Notes: generated by a model from the letters alone, not told the origin. A stretch of 39,840 nucleotides of DNA from Phycisphaerae bacterium (GCA_030612705.1 JAUWNI010000026.1:1-39840); one strand, 5' to 3'; counted from the stretch's first letter, positions 29,793 through 39,840 are shown. Numbers and translations are program-made.

Positions 29793-29961
29793 CGTTTCCT
29801 CCCGCGGGCAGCCCCGCTCATATGAAGTTTCTGAAGTGTGCCCGAGCGTCCCCACGAATGCTGGACCCCGGTTATCCGGACCTATCATACGCCCGCGCGC
29901 CCCCGCCGCAATCCCCCAGGGTCTCCTGGACGGCTCCGCCGGCACTCCTGGATCCTCCGCC
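29793..29961. other. gap before the minisatellite
   Basis: This short gap holds no supported gene. It carries the ribosome binding site and presumably the promoter of the minus-strand gene starting at 29792; no clear -35/-10 pair was found. Confidence 0.4.
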
Positions 29962-30150
29962 GGGCCCGCCGGAAGCGTCGCCGGGGCCAGCAGAAGCGTC
30001 GCTGGGGCCAACGGAAGCACCGCTGGGGCCAACGGAAGCGTCGCCGGGGCCAACGGAAGCGTCGCCGGGGCCAACGGAAGCGTCGCCGGGGCCAGCGGAA
30101 GCGTCGTTGGGGCCAACGGAAGCGTCGCCGGGGCCAACGGAAGCGTCGCT
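29962..30150. repeat. 21-bp minisatellite, nine copies
   Basis: Nine head-to-tail units of 21 bases fill 29962-30150. The commonest unit starts GGGGCCAACGG and ends AAGCGTCGCC; most differences are CC/CT/TT at the unit end and AAC/AGC inside. Because 21 is divisible by three, all frames stay open and encode seven-residue repeats (for example GPTEASP on the plus strand). No frame has a credible start, so I treat it as non-coding or a relic. It lies between the genes at 29792 and 30283. Confidence 0.9.
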
Positions 30151-30282: not shown

Positions 30283-31677
30283 TTACCGCAGCGCTTCCGC
30301 CCACAGCTCGATATAGCCCATCGTCCCTTGCCAGCCGAGATGTTGTCGAAGGGGACGGCAATCCCGCCACGCTTCGGCCTTGTCGGTGACGTGTTGGGAA
30401 CGATCGACAGCGTGTATCTCGGCGACTACCTGCCGCTCCTTGAAGCGGTTGATGAGGAAGTGGAAGCGGCACATCTTCGCTGCGGAGGGGGTCTGGCTAT
30501 CGCGCTGAGCCGTTGCGTTGGCCCGGTGCATGTCGCCGAAAGATGCAAACCGTGCGAGGTCGTCGCCGACCACTCCTTTGCAGATCTGGCAGTCGCACAC
30601 GTTGGCGAAGAAGTCCGCCGGGGTTGTGATACCCACATCTTGAAAGCAGCGTTGGATGTCGGGCACGCCTACGCGCTTGCTGATGGGCGGGAGATAGTAC
30701 CGCACGGTCGGGGCGACGGCCCCGATGACTTGCGCGACGGGCTTTCTCTCGCCGTAGCCGACCCCGTGGCTGATCCCGGTCAGGCCGTCGTGCGCCAGAA
30801 GAAGGCTGAAGTAACCCCCGTGGAGGTTGTAAACATCCATCTTGCCGCTCAGGCCACGCACGATGCTGCGGAACGCCACGAGCCTGTCGAGCGGCGCATC
30901 CAGTTCGTCGAAACCATCGAACCACAGCCAAACGCCCGCCGCCTTGGTCTTGGGAAGCTCATCAATCAGGTATTTGACATACGCCGCGTCGCTCAGGATC
31001 GAGCCGCTGGCGCACACCACGGCGTGGACCGGCACGACCGGATTCAGCGCCGCCGTGCGGCTGGCAAGGTCGATCGCCGTCTCCAGTCCTTCATCGACCC
31101 AGTCGTGGTGGACGAAGAAGTACGGGGCGAAGACGGCGGCTGGCTGACCCTCGCCCTCAAAGCTGCGCATCAAGTCGTCCTCGGAGAGAATTTCTTCGAT
31201 TCGCTTGAGTTGGTAATCGACCACACCCTGACACAGTTTGTCACGGTCCGCAGGCTCAATGGCCGGGGCGTCGATCGCCGTGCAGGCCAGCCCGTCGTTC
31301 ACGGCGGCACGAAAGTCCGGACCAAGCTTGTCGGCTAACGCCATGTACGACCTCTTGACGGCCTTGATCTTCTTCTTCGAGCCGCGCTTCTCCAACCGCT
31401 CAGATTTGAGCGCTTCCAGGTCGTTCCGCTTCCGCCCAGTCTCGGGATCGATGTATGGGCCGAAGCAGTACGTCATTGGGTCCAGATAAAACGGCAACGC
31501 CCTTGGATCCCGCTTGTTCTTTAGGGCGAAGATGAGGCTGCATGTCGCGGCTGGGGTGATCTCCATCAGATTGCCACCGAACATGATGCCGTCCAGACTC
31601 TGCGCGAGCTTTTGGAAGTATGCTTTCTCGGCGTGTGAGCCGATACGAAGGACCACCTTTGGCGGCGGGATACTCAT
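30283..31677 (-). CDS. TGT-like (queuine/archaeosine tRNA-guanine transglycosylase-type) protein in a defence-like operon
   Basis: The 464-residue protein starts MSIPPPKVVLRIGSHAEKAY. Near its end C361-x-C363-x2-C366 (VCDCQIC) and H406 (CRFHFLINRF) match the zinc site CxCxxC...H of tRNA-guanine transglycosylases. The middle alternates strand and helix motifs (VWLWFDGFDELDAPLDRLVA; LTGISHGVGYGERKPVAQVI) as expected for a TIM barrel. TGT-like enzymes swap guanine for 7-deazaguanine; DpdA of the dpd defence cluster does so in DNA. I have not identified the catalytic aspartates, so catalysis is unproven. The start overlaps the stop of the nuclease-like gene by four bases (ATGA). It is the last gene of the operon. 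Confidence 0.6.
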   Translation of the reverse strand: MSIPPPKVVLRIGSHAEKAYFQKLAQSLDGIMFGGNLMEITPAATCSLIFALKNKRDPRALPFYLDPMTYCFGPYIDPETGRKRNDLEALKSERLEKRGSKKKIKAVKRSYMALADKLGPDFRAAVNDGLACTAIDAPAIEPADRDKLCQGVVDYQLKRIEEILSEDDLMRSFEGEGQPAAVFAPYFFVHHDWVDEGLETAIDLASRTAALNPVVPVHAVVCASGSILSDAAYVKYLIDELPKTKAAGVWLWFDGFDELDAPLDRLVAFRSIVRGLSGKMDVYNLHGGYFSLLLAHDGLTGISHGVGYGERKPVAQVIGAVAPTVRYYLPPISKRVGVPDIQRCFQDVGITTPADFFANVCDCQICKGVVGDDLARFASFGDMHRANATAQRDSQTPSAAKMCRFHFLINRFKERQVVAEIHAVDRSQHVTDKAEAWRDCRPLRQHLGWQGTMGYIELWAEALR

Positions 31678-32090
31678 GGTCGTTGCTCCTGCATCAACCG
31701 AACATAGAAATCCCGATAGCTCGGCATGACCACCGTCGATTGTTGGGCCTCCAGCAGCACCACGCAGCGCGGCCCGGGATGTACACCAATCAGCCCCAGG
31801 CCGTGCCGCTCAAGTAGCGGCCGTTCCACACGCTCAGCAGCGCGCATCGGCAGGGCAAGGTACACGAGGTCCGCGCAGAGCTGATAGATCAATGCCTGCT
31901 CAAAGGCCCGCGTCCAGCGAGCAAGCTTGAGTTCGACGGCGGTCGTCGTGTTCTTTGTCGCGGCGTAGCCGTACAAGTCCATGCTGTACTCAAAGAACTG
32001 CACCTCTGGGCGCTGCCGCCGGTAGCCGCGCCGGCGCAGGCTGCCGCTCACGGGATCGAGCAGGGCAGATTCTCTAAGAAAGGTCGGCAT
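31674..32090 (-). CDS. small PD-(D/E)XK nuclease-like protein
   Basis: The 138-residue protein has the restriction-endonuclease fold pattern: D38 in YSMDLYGYA, then E53-x-K55 in TTAVELKLARW after about 14 residues. A following helix has a conserved-type Gln (AFEQALIYQLCADLVYLALP). This resembles DUF2161-like and phage or defence PD-(D/E)XK proteins. DNA cleavage or a structural role is inferred. It overlaps the membrane-protein gene by 17 bases upstream and the TGT-like gene by four bases downstream, so all three are coupled. Confidence 0.6.
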   Translation of the reverse strand: MPTFLRESALLDPVSGSLRRRGYRRQRPEVQFFEYSMDLYGYAATKNTTTAVELKLARWTRAFEQALIYQLCADLVYLALPMRAAERVERPLLERHGLGLIGVHPGPRCVVLLEAQQSTVVMPSYRDFYVRLMQEQRP

Positions 32091-32691
32091 TCTTCTCCTT
32101 CAATACCTCGAACCGGTTGATTGAGATCACGACTCGAAGGGCGAAGAACGCGCTTGTGGCGAGACATCCTACAACTATCGCGAATGCGGTCACGAAGGGC
32201 CAATCACCGCCAATCACCAGCATCCCACCTTTGATGCTGACCGCCGCAAGGACAAACGCACCCGAGACGATGCCCGCCACAATTGTCGACACACGGAGCC
32301 AGCGCAGGTATCGCGTGATGCACGAGTCAGCGGCATCAAGGGACCGCAGTGATTTCATTAGAATAACGTCAGATTTGACGAAGTCTCGCACGGCATTCAG
32401 CAGCTTTCCCTCACCGAGTTTTGTGATCTTTGCTACTCTGCTGGGCTCGGTGCCCCCAGGCAGTATCAGTTTGGAAATGTCAACAGAGTTTGCGAGCGTT
32501 AAGATCGGCTCGAACTTTTCCGCGAGCGAAACAGCGATGGCCCGCAGAAGGCCCTTACGCAGGTCCTTGATCTCATCCTGCGGTTGCTTGCCAAACTTCG
32601 ACTCGCCGCCTAGTTTGAAAACGATCAGCCACATGAAGCCGCATACGGGCCCGTGAATCGCAAGGCTCCACGTAGCAAGATCGCCAATCAA
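32074..32691 (-). CDS. multi-helix membrane protein of unknown function
   Basis: The 205-residue protein has three predicted membrane segments: residues 8-26 (SLAIHGPVCGFMWLIVFKLG), about 134-157 (VSTIVAGIVSGAFVLAAVSI) and about 165-190 (WPFVTAFAIVVGCLATSAFF). A cytosolic stretch between them (30-130) is Lys/Asp-rich. The start is TTG at 32691, overlapping the stop of the SocA-like gene; a later start is possible. Small membrane proteins are frequent toxins or effectors in anti-phage and toxin-antitoxin loci, which is the best guess here. Confidence 0.6.
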   Translation of the reverse strand: MIGDLATWSLAIHGPVCGFMWLIVFKLGGESKFGKQPQDEIKDLRKGLLRAIAVSLAEKFEPILTLANSVDISKLILPGGTEPSRVAKITKLGEGKLLNAVRDFVKSDVILMKSLRSLDAADSCITRYLRWLRVSTIVAGIVSGAFVLAAVSIKGGMLVIGGDWPFVTAFAIVVGCLATSAFFALRVVISINRFEVLKEKNADLS

Positions 32692-33416
32692 TGGAGCTGA
32701 CCCTTTCGCAAGACGTTATCCCGAATCTCCGACTCGCTCGTCCAGCCGTCGGCCTCGTACTTGGTGTACACGTGGTACAGTAAGTCTTGCAGCGAGTAGT
32801 TCGCGAACTTCGACTTGATCTTGCGGATGCCGTCGGCGAATGGCTTGGACTCCGGCTTCTCCAACATCTCTTTCGCCAACTTGAGGCCCTTGTCGGTCAG
32901 CGTGAAGCGGCGCTCCTCGAACGTGTCGGCGGTCGAAGCCTCGGCCCGCGAGGTGACGTGTTGGAACGGGGGGGCGTCGTCACCCATGAGCTGCTCGAAC
33001 GACAGCTCCTCAAGCTCGACGGCCTCAGCCTCGGTCGCCTCGCCCTGAACCTCGCTCTGGATCAACCCTAGGTTCTCCAGCAACTCCAGTTCATCGTACA
33101 GCTTCGGCGAGTACGGCCCGGCCTTGTAGGGCTTGAACTCAAAGCTGTTATCAACCTCCTCAATACCCGCTTCCTTCCAAAGCAGGAACAGGAGCTTCTG
33201 GAGCCGGGTGATGCCGCCGATGCCCTTCTTAGAGATGCTTGGCCCGTCTAACCCCAGGAGGAGCAGCAACAGCCGCTGCTTGGACACCGTCGGTACGTTC
33301 GCGTTCGGTGCTGTCGGCATGAATGTGGGCTCCGCAAACATCGTGCCGCCCAGGGTCGGGGTGGCACTGATCGGCTGAGTCTTCGAACCCAGCAATTCGG
33401 TCTCGGCCCACGACAT
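32688..33416 (-). CDS. SocA/Panacea-like (DUF4065-related) protein
   Basis: The 242-residue protein carries KGIGGITRLQKLLFLLWKEA (near 62) and PYKAGPYSPKLYDELELLEN (near 95), followed by LGLI, the pattern of the SocA/Panacea antitoxin-related domain: LQKLLFLL, then PxxxGP and a short helix before LxxLG. The C-terminal part is charged and winged-helix-like (RRFTLTDKGLKLAKEMLE). Such domains act as antitoxins or as phage-interacting proteins. ATG 33416 is favoured by GGAG nine bases upstream. It starts 37 bases past the stop of the methyltransferase remnant, and its own stop overlaps the membrane-protein start. Confidence 0.65.
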   Translation of the reverse strand: MSWAETELLGSKTQPISATPTLGGTMFAEPTFMPTAPNANVPTVSKQRLLLLLLGLDGPSISKKGIGGITRLQKLLFLLWKEAGIEEVDNSFEFKPYKAGPYSPKLYDELELLENLGLIQSEVQGEATEAEAVELEELSFEQLMGDDAPPFQHVTSRAEASTADTFEERRFTLTDKGLKLAKEMLEKPESKPFADGIRKIKSKFANYSLQDLLYHVYTKYEADGWTSESEIRDNVLRKGQLH

Positions 33417-33453
33417 GATGGCGGGCTCCACAAAGTCAGTCAAGCCCAAAGAG

Positions 33454-33893
33454 CTACATCTTCTGCACGTGCTGCTCATCCAGGATTTCCTGCACGGTGA
33501 TGAGCTTGATGATCCGTCCGCTCTTCTTGTGGAACGCCACGCACTCGGCCTCGGCGTCGGCGGTGTAGCCGAAGGCGACGAAGAAGCCGCGCTGGCGTTC
33601 CTCGCGCGCCATGACGGCCTCGAACTGGTCGATGTCGGGCCGACCGACCTTGTCCACCTGCTTGACCTGGATCGGGAACCAGTCGCCCGCGAACATGCTG
33701 GCGGTCTGCCCCTCCTTGGTTTCCGCGTCGTAGGGCTTGCTGCCGACGGGGAAGATGCGCCCGTCGATGCCCATGTCTCCCACTTGCACCTTGTTGGGGA
33801 TCCCGCCCAGCGCGATGACTGCCCAGTTCTCGAACGGCAGCGGCAGGCGGTGGGGCTAATGTCGATGCCGATCCACTGCCGGCCGACTGTCCC
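33454..33893 (-). pseudogene. C-terminal remnant of a fused DNA methyltransferase-endonuclease
   Basis: Positions 33454-33855 stay open and encode LPLPFENWAVIALGGIPNK followed by QVGDMGIDGRIFPVG, FPIQVKQVDKVGRPDIDQFE, MAREERQRGFFVAFG and the end ILDEQHVQKM: an Mrr-like endonuclease domain. A stop codon and a frame change occur at 33848-33858. The preceding GRQWIGIDISPTACR (33848-33893), the end of the methyltransferase fold, lies in a different frame, so about 60 residues between them appear deleted. No start codon is credible. It is the counterpart of the N-terminal piece at 35684-36031. Confidence 0.75.
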
Positions 33894-33941
33894 CGCAGAG
33901 TTGGTAACTGCCCCGGCCGAATCCGACCTGGGAAAATCCGG

Positions 33942-34523
33942 TCAGGACTTTTTCATGCGATCCACGAGCGCCCGCCAGTTCTCGCACGACCACAGGAGCG
34001 AAGGCGGCATATTGTCCACAGCCTTACTTTCCCTGCACATCGAAGCCAGCTTCTTTGCCGCATCAGTCGCGTCGCTGCCGTGTCTCACGCGCGGGCCCTC
34101 TTTGGATTCATCCGTGTTTCCGGTTGTCAGGAATTCGATCCAGTTCTCGATGCGGTCTTTGGGAAGGATGAACACAACGCGATCGAAGTCTTCGCGTGTG
34201 ATTCCCGACTTCTCCGCTTCCTTCCAGAACTTATCCTTAAGCGCATCGCCGTCATCACAGTTGTCGTCACAGTCGGACCATACCATGAGCGTCGTATCGC
34301 CACCGGCGACGAGACAAAGCCTGAGCTGGCCGGGCATCGCAGCAATAACCCCTTTCCTGCCGCCGCAGGACTCTATCCGCACGCAGTTCGTTCCTGCAGG
34401 CCGAATCCAGCCCGGTTTCAGCGTTCTCATCAGCTTATTAATAAAGACCGCGTCGATGCTAGCGCCTTTCACGCCTTCACAGAGACAAACGATTTCCGTC
34501 CTACTCCTACTCCTACTCGCCAC
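33942..34523 (-). CDS. TOPRIM-like partner of the adjacent ATPase
   Basis: The 193-residue product starts at GTG 34523, overlapping the ATPase stop by 11 bases, with AGGGGG seven bases upstream. TEIVCLCEGVKGASIDAVFI has the E16-G17 of a TOPRIM motif, and MVWSDCDDNCDDGDALKDKF has the D84, D86, D87 cluster typical of the metal site. ENWIEFL near residue 126 is like the E[AN]W motif in RloB/DUF3226- and DUF4276-type proteins. TOPRIM proteins next to AAA ATPases form OLD-, PARIS- and Gabija-like defence pairs. The direct PARIS AriB (DUF4435) match is not established. Confidence 0.65.
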   Translation of the reverse strand: MASRSRSRTEIVCLCEGVKGASIDAVFINKLMRTLKPGWIRPAGTNCVRIESCGGRKGVIAAMPGQLRLCLVAGGDTTLMVWSDCDDNCDDGDALKDKFWKEAEKSGITREDFDRVVFILPKDRIENWIEFLTTGNTDESKEGPRVRHGSDATDAAKKLASMCRESKAVDNMPPSLLWSCENWRALVDRMKKS

Positions 34524-35628
34524 AAGCCCACCCCCTCGCGATCGCTTCACCGGCGCCCATGCCTTCCGGCACCTTGAGCGGCCCGATCCGAGTCGGGGAG
34601 GTGTGATTGTCTCGCCAGAGGTACCGCCCATTCGCTTCCCCGCTGTTGCTGAGGATTTCCGGGTGATGCGAGATCAGCACAAGTTGGTGCTTGTCGTCCA
34701 GCAGTTCGCGCATCGAAAGCACCCACGGCTGAAGCTCCGGCAGGCCAACGAAGTTGTCCGGCTCGTCGAGCATCACCGTCCTCGCGGCGCCCGTCTCCAG
34801 CGCCGCCCGCACCATGTAGAGTCCGATCAGCGCCCGCTCCCCGTCGGAAAGCCGATCAAAGAATAGAAGCGTTGGCTTGTCCGCCTCATTTTCGAACCGA
34901 AGCTGAAGTGCCTTCGTGTTCATCCCGGCATCCACCAGCTTGAACGATCGAAAGTCCGGCCAGACCTCCTGCAGCGCATCCCGCAGCGCGTCGGTCCACT
35001 GCTGCTCTTGTGCCAGTGAGCGATACCACGACGTAAGGTTCGTTATGGACAAGTCCGGATGCCGCGTCTCGGCTTTGCTCTCCCTCTCCATGCCGCGCGG
35101 ATTGGGGCGAAGAATCAACAGTTTCGCGATCTCATCTTGGAATAGTTCCAGCTTGGCGAGTTTGACGCTGCGCGGTTCAATGGCCGCCAGCGCCGCTTGT
35201 CGCCAGTCAAGCGGGAAAGAGGCTTTCGTACCATCGGCCTTTTCGAATTCCACGCCTTCCAAGTCCCGTTTGAACAGCAGCCTTCCGTCGCAATCGGCCT
35301 GTTCCTTGATGATCCGGGGCTTCTCGAAATCCGCCTTCTGCTCAACGTGCAGTACGTAGTCGAAATCATGCCCGTCCACTCTCAACCCGAGTTCGAATTC
35401 CTCGACAGTGCTGTCGAGCCATTCGGTGAACTCCAGTTCACGGACGTCTAGCTCGCCCGTCCCGCCGAGCAATGCGTCACCGGTCCCGAGGTTCCGCAGC
35501 AAGCGCAGCACATCGAACACCGAGCTTTTGCCCGCGCCGTTGGGTCCGCACAATACGGCAAACGAGTCAAACTCCGCTTTGAAATTCACCAGGCAACGGA
35601 AGTTGTTCACATACAGTCGTGTGATCAT
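34513..35628 (-). CDS. AAA/SMC-type ATPase (OLD/AriA-like)
   Basis: The 371-residue protein has the Walker A motif CGPNGAGKSS (near residue 27) right after MITRLYVNNFRCLVNFKAEF, the start shared by AAA15/AAA21/RecF-type ATPases. The ABC-like signature is LSDGERALIGLYMV, the Walker B is TVMLDEPDNF, and the H-loop is LISHHPEIL. A helical insert separates the two halves, where larger SMC-like ATPases have a coiled coil. Length fits the OLD/AriA ATPase class. It is followed by a TOPRIM-like gene overlapping by 11 bases, so the two are a unit. Upstream, AGGA lies about eight bases before the ATG. Confidence 0.8.
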   Translation of the reverse strand: MITRLYVNNFRCLVNFKAEFDSFAVLCGPNGAGKSSVFDVLRLLRNLGTGDALLGGTGELDVRELEFTEWLDSTVEEFELGLRVDGHDFDYVLHVEQKADFEKPRIIKEQADCDGRLLFKRDLEGVEFEKADGTKASFPLDWRQAALAAIEPRSVKLAKLELFQDEIAKLLILRPNPRGMERESKAETRHPDLSITNLTSWYRSLAQEQQWTDALRDALQEVWPDFRSFKLVDAGMNTKALQLRFENEADKPTLLFFDRLSDGERALIGLYMVRAALETGAARTVMLDEPDNFVGLPELQPWVLSMRELLDDKHQLVLISHHPEILSNSGEANGRYLWRDNHTSPTRIGPLKVPEGMGAGEAIARGWACGE

Positions 35629-35683
35629 GCCAATATCCTATATCGGTTCCGAGTGTACGTCGACCATTCCCGTGGCGGTGGCG

Positions 35684-36031
35684 CCAGTCGCAGTGGTAGT
35701 AGAAGCTGCCGGTCTTCTTGAGCACGCGAGCAAGCTCGACGCAGCGCGGGCGCATGTAGTCGATGTAGGCCTGCGTGCTGGCGTGGCGGTCTTCGAACGC
35801 CCGCTTCTCCTTGGTCTCGCCCCAGAAGACCTCGTAGTTGCGGTTGCTGTTGAACGGCGGGTCGATGTAGATCAGGTCCACGCAAGCATCGGGCAGCTTG
35901 GCGAGTTGGTCCAGGCAGTCGCCGCAATACACGATGCGCGTATCGAGCAGCGCCGACGGCCGCGCCGCGCACTTCGGCGGCGCGGCAGGCTTCGCGGGCC
36001 GTGCTTTCTTTGACGGACGTTTGCCGGCCAT
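35684..36031 (-). pseudogene. N-terminal remnant of a DNA (N4/N6) methyltransferase
   Basis: The 116 codons from ATG 36031 encode a Lys/Pro/Ala-rich leader and LLDTRIVYCGDCLDQLAKLP, DLIYIDPPFNSNRNYEVFWG (catalytic motif IV, DPPF) and VLKKTGSFYYHCDW. The homology stops at CDW (35684). The frame goes on through unrelated residues into the ATPase start. In this family CDW is normally followed by HxxHYVKV and the rest of the enzyme, which is missing. The DPPF motif is kept, but the SAM-binding FxGxG region is not, so the fragment should be inactive. Confidence 0.75.
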
Positions 36032-39464: not shown

Positions 39465-39840
39465 GCCATGTCCTCCCTCGATTTGGGTCCGCGCCTCCAC
39501 GATGTGTACAGGCTGTGCCCGCTCGGCCGCCACAACCGCTCATAACAATAGAAGGATCGGCGCGTTTCGGCAACGGTGCGGATCAGAGTTCGGGGTTCGG
39601 AGTAACGTCAGTGGCTTTGGCACGCTGTCATTCCGAGCATTTCACCGGCGTTGCCGGCCATGGGTGAAAGAAACTACTTTTAGAAAGTACGCGTTTAGCC
39701 TTCTGATAGTCCCGGAGGGACGAAAGATAGTAGCCCAGGGCGTGAGCCCTGGGGTAAGGGAGCGTATTGTGCCGAAAGCCCCGGAGGGGCGGCAGAGACG
39801 CGGCGCGTGTCGGGAACTCTCTGTCGCCCCTCCGGGGCTC
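39465..39840. repeat. palindromic repeats upstream of tssA
   Basis: No gene is seen between the tssA start and the window end. AGCCCCGGAGGGGCG (39777-39791) and CGCCCCTCCGGGGCT (39825-39839) form an inverted pair around GGCAGAGA and TCTCTGTC. Upstream a shorter hairpin, CCCAGGG CGTGAG CCCTGGG (39734-39753), and TAGTCCCGGAGGGACGAAAG are related. These look like a family similar to the elements at 36094-36363. No clear promoter for tssA was recognised. Confidence 0.6.

Follow-up and report, generated by a model that had tools for sequence, protein, structure and literature searches.

Gene content of the locus

The window, the whole 39,840-nucleotide stretch of Phycisphaerae bacterium DNA that was analysed, carries eight segments on its minus strand between positions 30283 and 36031. 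Reading of the open reading frames (ORFs) revealed all eight on this one strand and with the coordinates that an initial annotation had given them. In reading direction they are:

35680..36031, minus strand: N-terminal remnant of an N6/N4 MTase-Mrr fusion gene (90% identical to the L102 protein); outside the quartet
34513..35628, minus strand: AAA_15/AAA_21 (OLD/RecF-like) ATPase, 371 aa, with Pfam and PADLOC matches; outside the quartet
33942..34523, minus strand: TOPRIM-like partner of the ATPase, probable GTG start at 34523, E...DxD recognised by eye; outside the quartet
33457..33930, minus strand: C-terminal remnant of the MTase-Mrr gene (GRQWIGIDISPTACR plus Mrr_cat, 3.4e-6); outside the quartet
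32688..33320, minus strand: SocA/Panacea-like protein, 210 aa from the ATG at 33320, ORF reaching 33479; likely antitoxin/regulator
32074..32691, minus strand: membrane protein, 205 aa, TTG start at 32691; likely exchangeable toxin/effector
31674..32090, minus strand: PD-(D/E)XK nuclease-like protein, 138 aa; E29, D38, E53-x-K55, Q65
30283..31677, minus strand: TGT-fold protein, 464 aa; zinc motif C361, C363, C366, H406; D66 (IDPxT)

The last four genes, all on the minus strand at 30283-33320 and read in the order SocA, membrane protein, PD-(D/E)XK protein and TGT-like protein, form an operon, the quartet. Overlaps of 4-17 bases had been claimed for them; we found 4 bases between the SocA and membrane genes, 17 between the membrane and nuclease genes and 4 between the nuclease and TGT genes, which is the pattern of translationally coupled genes. 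The SocA gene probably starts at the ATG at 33320; since its homologues place the start there, the overlap of the longer ORF with the upstream Mrr remnant is regarded as spurious.

A broken MTase-Mrr gene and an ATPase/TOPRIM-like module

Intact MTase-Mrr relatives are each encoded by one ORF of roughly 500-600 aa, and a paralogue in the window's own genome (G000:C59) has an open frame of 555 aa. Alignment with these sequences showed that the two remnants represent the two ends of one MTase-Mrr gene. The N-terminal remnant is 90% identical to the intact 521-aa L102 protein as far as 'FYYHCDW', where homology ends; it restarts at 'GRQWIGIDISPTACR', and what lies in between, about residues 124-340, is missing. 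The C-terminal remnant shares 72% of its residues with the C-terminus of the intact gene and matches Pfam Mrr_cat (3.4e-6). The gene is frameshifted, and because it lacks its middle and shows a further gap, it is dead.

The ATPase and TOPRIM-like genes occupy the gap left by the missing middle. The ATPase matched Pfam AAA_21 (1.8e-12) and PADLOC PDC-M25A (8.8e-21), and the TOPRIM-like protein had no match in Pfam, PADLOC or NCBIfam. A likeness to PARIS and OLD-type ATPase and TOPRIM pairs concerns this neighbouring module and not the quartet; the module differs from them in that the partner of the ATPase matches no AriB (DUF4435, by which PARIS is recognised) or OLD model in Pfam or PADLOC. 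The pair recurs in four other genomes (L096-L099; ATPase 67-82%, TOPRIM-like protein 54-65% identical), in stretches, some of them ended by contig edges, where neither an MTase-Mrr gene nor the quartet was found, and is therefore best seen as an independent module. It was not seen at any other quartet locus read. Judged by these comparisons, the first four segments are the debris of a dead MTase-Mrr gene, broken by a mobile ATPase and TOPRIM-like pair, together with that pair. The initial view of all eight genes as one series forming a single defence or modification system, to which their common strand and small spacing had lent credit, was rejected as scarcely tenable, given a frameshifted MTase-Mrr gene without its middle and an ATPase/TOPRIM-like pair that stands without it in four genomes and is absent from the other quartet loci read.

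Distribution and conservation of the quartet

Related loci were searched with two subfamily alignments, the broad family alignment being too diverse. Reading of the neighbouring genes revealed the complete series SocA-TM-PD-(D/E)XK-TGT, in one order and on one strand, at 20 loci (window, L010-L013, L015-L017, L027-L029, L032, L034, L036, L037, L039, L041, L043, L046 and L064), with the membrane gene assigned by position and TM helices in L016, L032 and L064 and the TGT gene cut by the contig end in L034. The hosts are Planctomycetota, Acidobacteriota, a Gammaproteobacterium MAG and an Arthrobacter plasmid (names as in the records; contamination of MAGs is possible), and the loci reach down to about 20-25% protein identity. 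The grouping of these four genes is far beyond chance. Their homologues do adjoin in other genomes, and the proposal that the four are a conserved unit in unrelated hosts has held. SocA, nuclease and TGT genes lie together without a recognisable membrane gene at four loci (L030, L033, L045, L063). L014, L031, L038 and L040 are incomplete, which contig ends account for in L014, L031 and L040, and L035 is a divergent nuclease and TGT pair. Standalone distant TGT-like proteins in Acidobacteriota have no quartet neighbours.

Among 298 genomes of the class, 9 contain a TGT-like homologue, as do 10 of the 392 examined for the phylum; both counts include the genome of the window. When 84,980 species genomes were scanned, the Gammaproteobacterium MAG, two MAGs of Acidobacteriota and more Planctomycetota joined the set. 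Outside Planctomycetota the system is rare: in a set of 398 genomes of Pseudomonadota only the seed itself carries it. Most copies are chromosomal; two lie on plasmids, Haloarcula marismortui pNG400 (L063, without the membrane gene) and Arthrobacter sp. AK-1 pSI-1 (L064, complete), and one quartet copy is on a recombinase-carrying element. Two virus-collection contigs carry homologues of the system, and phage records returned none for either of two TGT queries.

The pairwise identities of the TGT, SocA and nuclease proteins co-vary across 23 loci (r 0.87-0.92), a correlation reached by none of 2000 permutations. In the tree, the Gammaproteobacterium and Acidobacteriota copies fall with the Planctomycetota copies, which is consistent with horizontal transfer.

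The SocA-like protein and the exchangeable membrane gene

The SocA protein of the window matched the Pfam model SocA_Panacea below the cut-off (E 0.015, 16.6 bits). Matching homologues gave E-values of 2.9e-5 to 0.019, sub-threshold in four of five scanned, and the best score was 25.4 bits (L063) against a curated cut-off of 25.7. For a defence function, a Panacea score under the Pfam cut-off is a point against. The PADLOC model PDC-M19A was matched by three proteins, with an E-value of 3.5e-12 for the window SocA, and NCBI names the Haloarcula homologue a 'SocA domain-containing' antitoxin. The toxins that Panacea antitoxins neutralise include some that depolarise membranes (PMC8832971), and the domain has been proposed to have a sensory role (PMC10440598). 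The SocA-like protein is likely to be an antitoxin or regulator.

Hydropathy analysis of the membrane protein indicated a pair of TM helices on the C-terminal side, perhaps one more near the N-terminus, and two to three segments in its homologues; it has no Pfam family. Comparison with the nearest relative (L041) showed 75% identical aa for SocA, 83% for the nuclease and 75% for the TGT-like protein, versus 22% for the membrane protein. DNA identity to L041 is 78-80% over 33336-32702 and 32093-30289 and stops at both borders of the membrane gene. Of the four proteins, it is the membrane protein that diverges most in 178 of 190 locus pairs. The dN/dS values against L041 (SocA 0.23, nuclease 0.10, TGT-like 0.19) indicate purifying selection on the other three proteins. 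In a tightly matched antitoxin and toxin, the contrast between 75% identity for SocA and 22% for its presumed toxin partner would be odd, and it speaks against a defence reading.

Directly after the TGT gene of L014, L030 and L045 lies a gene whose product has SIR2 motifs. In L030 and L045 this gene is accompanied by SocA and nuclease genes and the membrane gene is absent; the L014 contig starts inside the TGT gene, so that presence of the membrane gene is not readable there. All three proteins keep the GAG, N/D (LNWD) and H (LHGS) motifs and match SIR2 models (Pfam SIR2_2 2.4e-5 in L045, SIR2_2 5e-4 in L014, SIR2 8e-4 in L030; PADLOC Aga_SIR2 about 9e-8). Immune operons typically exchange membrane proteins and SIR2 NADase-type proteins in their effector slots. 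The membrane gene is an exchangeable cassette, likely for an effector, that can be replaced by SIR2, and its exchange between close operons gives direct access to the way in which such systems switch effectors. L033 and the Haloarcula locus L063 carry no recognisable effector, which also counts against a defence reading.

In its arrangement the quartet resembles PanAT pairs of a Panacea (DUF4065) antitoxin with a membrane or other toxin (PMC8832971, PMC10440598), in which a Panacea-like gene is directly followed by an overlapping small membrane-protein gene and partners are swapped. Known PanAT loci have two or three genes, whereas the quartet adds the nuclease and TGT folds and has a Panacea match below the Pfam cut-off. 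The operon might be a plain plasmid or chromosome addiction module of Panacea antitoxin and toxin, in which the nuclease and TGT-like proteins would serve as accessory regulators and immunity would not be the role. Known toxin-antitoxin pairs do join Panacea to membrane toxins (PMC8832971), and there are two plasmid copies and one on the recombinase-carrying element. Nevertheless, addiction needs less than four genes that are strictly kept and include two enzyme folds, most copies are chromosomal and the variable part is the toxin rather than the core, and we regard this explanation as unlikely.

Predicted folds of the nuclease-like and TGT-like proteins

The initial annotation had called the two proteins PD-(D/E)XK-like and TGT-like, and structure prediction recovered both folds. 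The AlphaFold2 model of the nuclease-like protein (pLDDT 93, pTM 0.88) was most similar in Foldseek to 3dnx (MmcB-like), followed by SfsA, NucS/EndoMS and HindIII; 2vld, 5gke and 2e52 are among the matching folds. The fold and the E...D...ExK(...Q) motif place the protein in the PD-(D/E)XK superfamily; E29, D38, E53, K55 and Q65 are invariant in two alignments and kept in both plasmid copies. One nuclease homologue matched the MmcB-like Pfam model below its cut-off.

The AlphaFold2 model of the TGT-like protein (pLDDT 77.9, pTM 0.82) displayed the (beta/alpha)8 fold of the TGT superfamily. In Foldseek searches against the PDB all 46 matches with E <= 0.001 were tRNA-guanine transglycosylases, at about 10% identity and with TM-scores mostly of 0.41-0.46 (query) and 0.49-0.55 (target). 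Sequence searches did not reach this family: Pfam PF01702 (TGT) matched none of 13 family members at E <= 1, a PDB sequence search with the protein or its profile found no relatives, and PHROGs gave only weak, chance-like matches. By hhalign the alignment to canonical TGT was weak (probability 6%, E 0.006) and informative for the zinc motif alone, where it placed CxCxxC in register. The Cys3-His zinc site, C-x-C-x-x-C...H, is kept in the window and in all aligned quartet relatives except Arthrobacter L064. D66 of the IDPxT motif is kept in all aligned members but L043 and, matched by strand order, is the probable counterpart of the catalytic D102. The TGT nucleophile, D280 of Z. mobilis TGT, lies on the last barrel strand. 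It is present in canonical TGT (GVDLFDC) and in the DpdA-like protein of one host (SFDNTSP, L062). The corresponding strand of the window protein reads GISHGVGYGE, and no aligned quartet relative has an Asp there; the strand was matched by its order rather than by superposing structures, and the model has low confidence in this part (residues 307-337). The active site may have been relocated.

The TGT-type fold, the zinc motif and a nuclease that may act with the TGT-like protein recall Dpd and phage DpdA (PMC6884629), from which the quartet differs by a TGT-like protein that has no nucleophile Asp and is unrecognised by the TGT Pfam model. A restriction-modification system can be constructed from these parts, in which the TGT-like protein, as DpdA does, would put 7-deazaguanine into host DNA, the PD-(D/E)XK protein would cut unmodified DNA and the SocA and membrane genes would be a back-up toxin pair. 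The TGT fold with its zinc site, a D66 that could match D102 and the adjoining nuclease gene agree with this. So does the preQ0 synthesis gene QueC, found in 17 of 17 and five of five quartet genomes searched; its presence says little, however, because QueC also occurs in 12 of 14 control genomes, and it was dropped as an uninformative, near-universal sign of deazaguanine use. The missing Asp in every relative aligned makes DpdA-like DNA modification doubtful, no preQ0, deazaguanine or DpdB/DpdC-like genes were seen in the operon or beside any copy inspected, and the viral structure library held no close DpdA match. The hint at such modification in the initial annotation is not supported by these results, and restriction-modification was ranked lower rather than discarded and is unlikely.

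TGTs recognise the anticodon loop of tRNA, and the fold search at E <= 0.001 yielded TGT structures only. The TGT-fold protein could hence bind the anticodon region of tRNA, with the PD-(D/E)XK protein cutting it or sensing damage, so that translation stops on infection. This is less probable still: PD-(D/E)XK enzymes act mostly on DNA, and the nearest nuclease folds are MmcB-like, SfsA and NucS/EndoMS.

A proposed role in defence

The four genes are very likely an immune or toxin-antitoxin system of a kind not yet described. The quartet at 30283-33320 is best explained as a horizontally spread defence operon of toxin-antitoxin or abortive-infection type, made up of a core and an effector that can be swapped; we give this reading a probability of roughly 0.6. 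It is based on the kept gene order, the co-variation, the two folds with the nuclease motif and zinc site, the cassette exchange, the plasmid copies and the defence genes near some loci. Each mechanistic step is less likely than this role as a whole. The PD-(D/E)XK and TGT-fold proteins would form a nucleic-acid recognition and cleavage module, perhaps as a complex, in which the TGT fold would bind nucleic acid or a base and the small nuclease would supply the cut. The Panacea-like protein may silence the toxic effector (membrane-perturbing in the window, of SIR2 NADase type elsewhere) and couple it to this module. Invading nucleic acid or a protein of the invader might then be the trigger that frees the effector, whose presumed toxicity would stop the cell and confer anti-phage immunity. 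A bolder version, which we consider possible but rather doubtful, is a new class of immunity in which a TGT-fold protein without its transglycosylase nucleophile would sense nucleic acid or a base and guide a small PD-(D/E)XK nuclease, and a Panacea-like switch would free the plugged-in toxin, be it membrane protein or SIR2 NADase.

TGT-family proteins occur in known defence operons. Cap10 is essential to the anti-phage operon of type IV CBASS and binds a partner protein there at an N-terminus that carries a deazaguanine modification (PMC11996544). Neither the CD-NTase nor the QueC-like Cap9 of type IV CBASS was seen in the quartet loci read, and the TGT-like protein has no PADLOC match. BREX-related capture (BRC) operons likewise include a TGT homologue (PMC12839542); the quartet shows no PglZ, HerA/FtsK, BrxC or GNAT. 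PADLOC-DB 2.0 yielded no match for the membrane, nuclease and TGT-like proteins (E up to 1 for the window, up to 0.01 for selected homologues). The TGT-like family is named by none of the Pfam, PADLOC, NCBIfam and PHROGs models searched, and the nuclease and membrane families of the window by none in Pfam, PADLOC and NCBIfam. Open full-text papers, a set mostly without subscription papers and preprints and thus leaving a prior description possible, contained no description of the four-gene combination. Each part belongs to a known kind; what is new within the libraries and open papers searched is their combination, a TGT that lacks the nucleophile and an effector that plugs in.

The quartet is thus a compact operon, undescribed in the family and defence libraries searched, that ranges from Planctomycetota to an archaeal plasmid. 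As a defence operon it would be the second case, after Cap10 in CBASS, of a TGT fold turned to use in immunity, and it would widen the theme of Panacea antitoxins, known from pairs, to a machine of four genes into which effectors are plugged. Among the loci chosen for inspection, restriction or Abi-type defence genes lie close to the quartet genes in L028, L029, L030 and L046; these neighbours comprise an Mrr-type IV enzyme with HsdR, a type III-like enzyme, AbiD with HsdS, and a defence-type reverse transcriptase.

Interrupted MTase-Mrr gene

A two-gene module, encoding an ATPase (34513-35628, minus strand) and a TOPRIM-like protein (33942-34523, minus strand), interrupts a fused MTase-Mrr gene at 33457-36031 of the window. 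The same module is present in four other genomes (loci L096-L099). No match for the TOPRIM-like partner was found among the Pfam, PADLOC and NCBIfam models, and the two genes may represent an undescribed OLD/PARIS-like pair. A further genome from the order (G031, locus L100) also has the MTase-Mrr gene in a broken state, with pieces of 142 aa and 136 aa.

Further TGT-like proteins and a rearranged operon copy

A second TGT-like protein is encoded in the quartet host G274 (locus L062). It displays the motifs SFDNTSP and CDCSSC, is adjoined by a ThyX-like gene and is likely a DpdA-type enzyme with retained nucleophile Asp.

The operon copy on an IMG/VR contig (L045) is rearranged and borne by a mobile element: TGT and SIR2 share one strand, nuclease and SocA lie on the opposite strand, and the copy has a repressor-like gene on one side and a gene for a large serine recombinase on the other.

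Distant standalone TGT-like proteins of about 400 aa were detected in 8 of 297 Acidobacteriota genomes (L074-L081). They constitute an unnamed TGT-like family with the motif VDPKT...PYF and, in some members, CxCxxC. Quartet genes are absent from their neighbourhood, and several adjoin apparent thiolase genes.

Other elements of the window

29958-30149: tandem array of nine copies of a GC-rich 21-base unit, close to the TGT-like gene on its 3' side
39708-39753, minus strand: Acido-Lenti-1 RNA (Rfam match, 62.6 bits)
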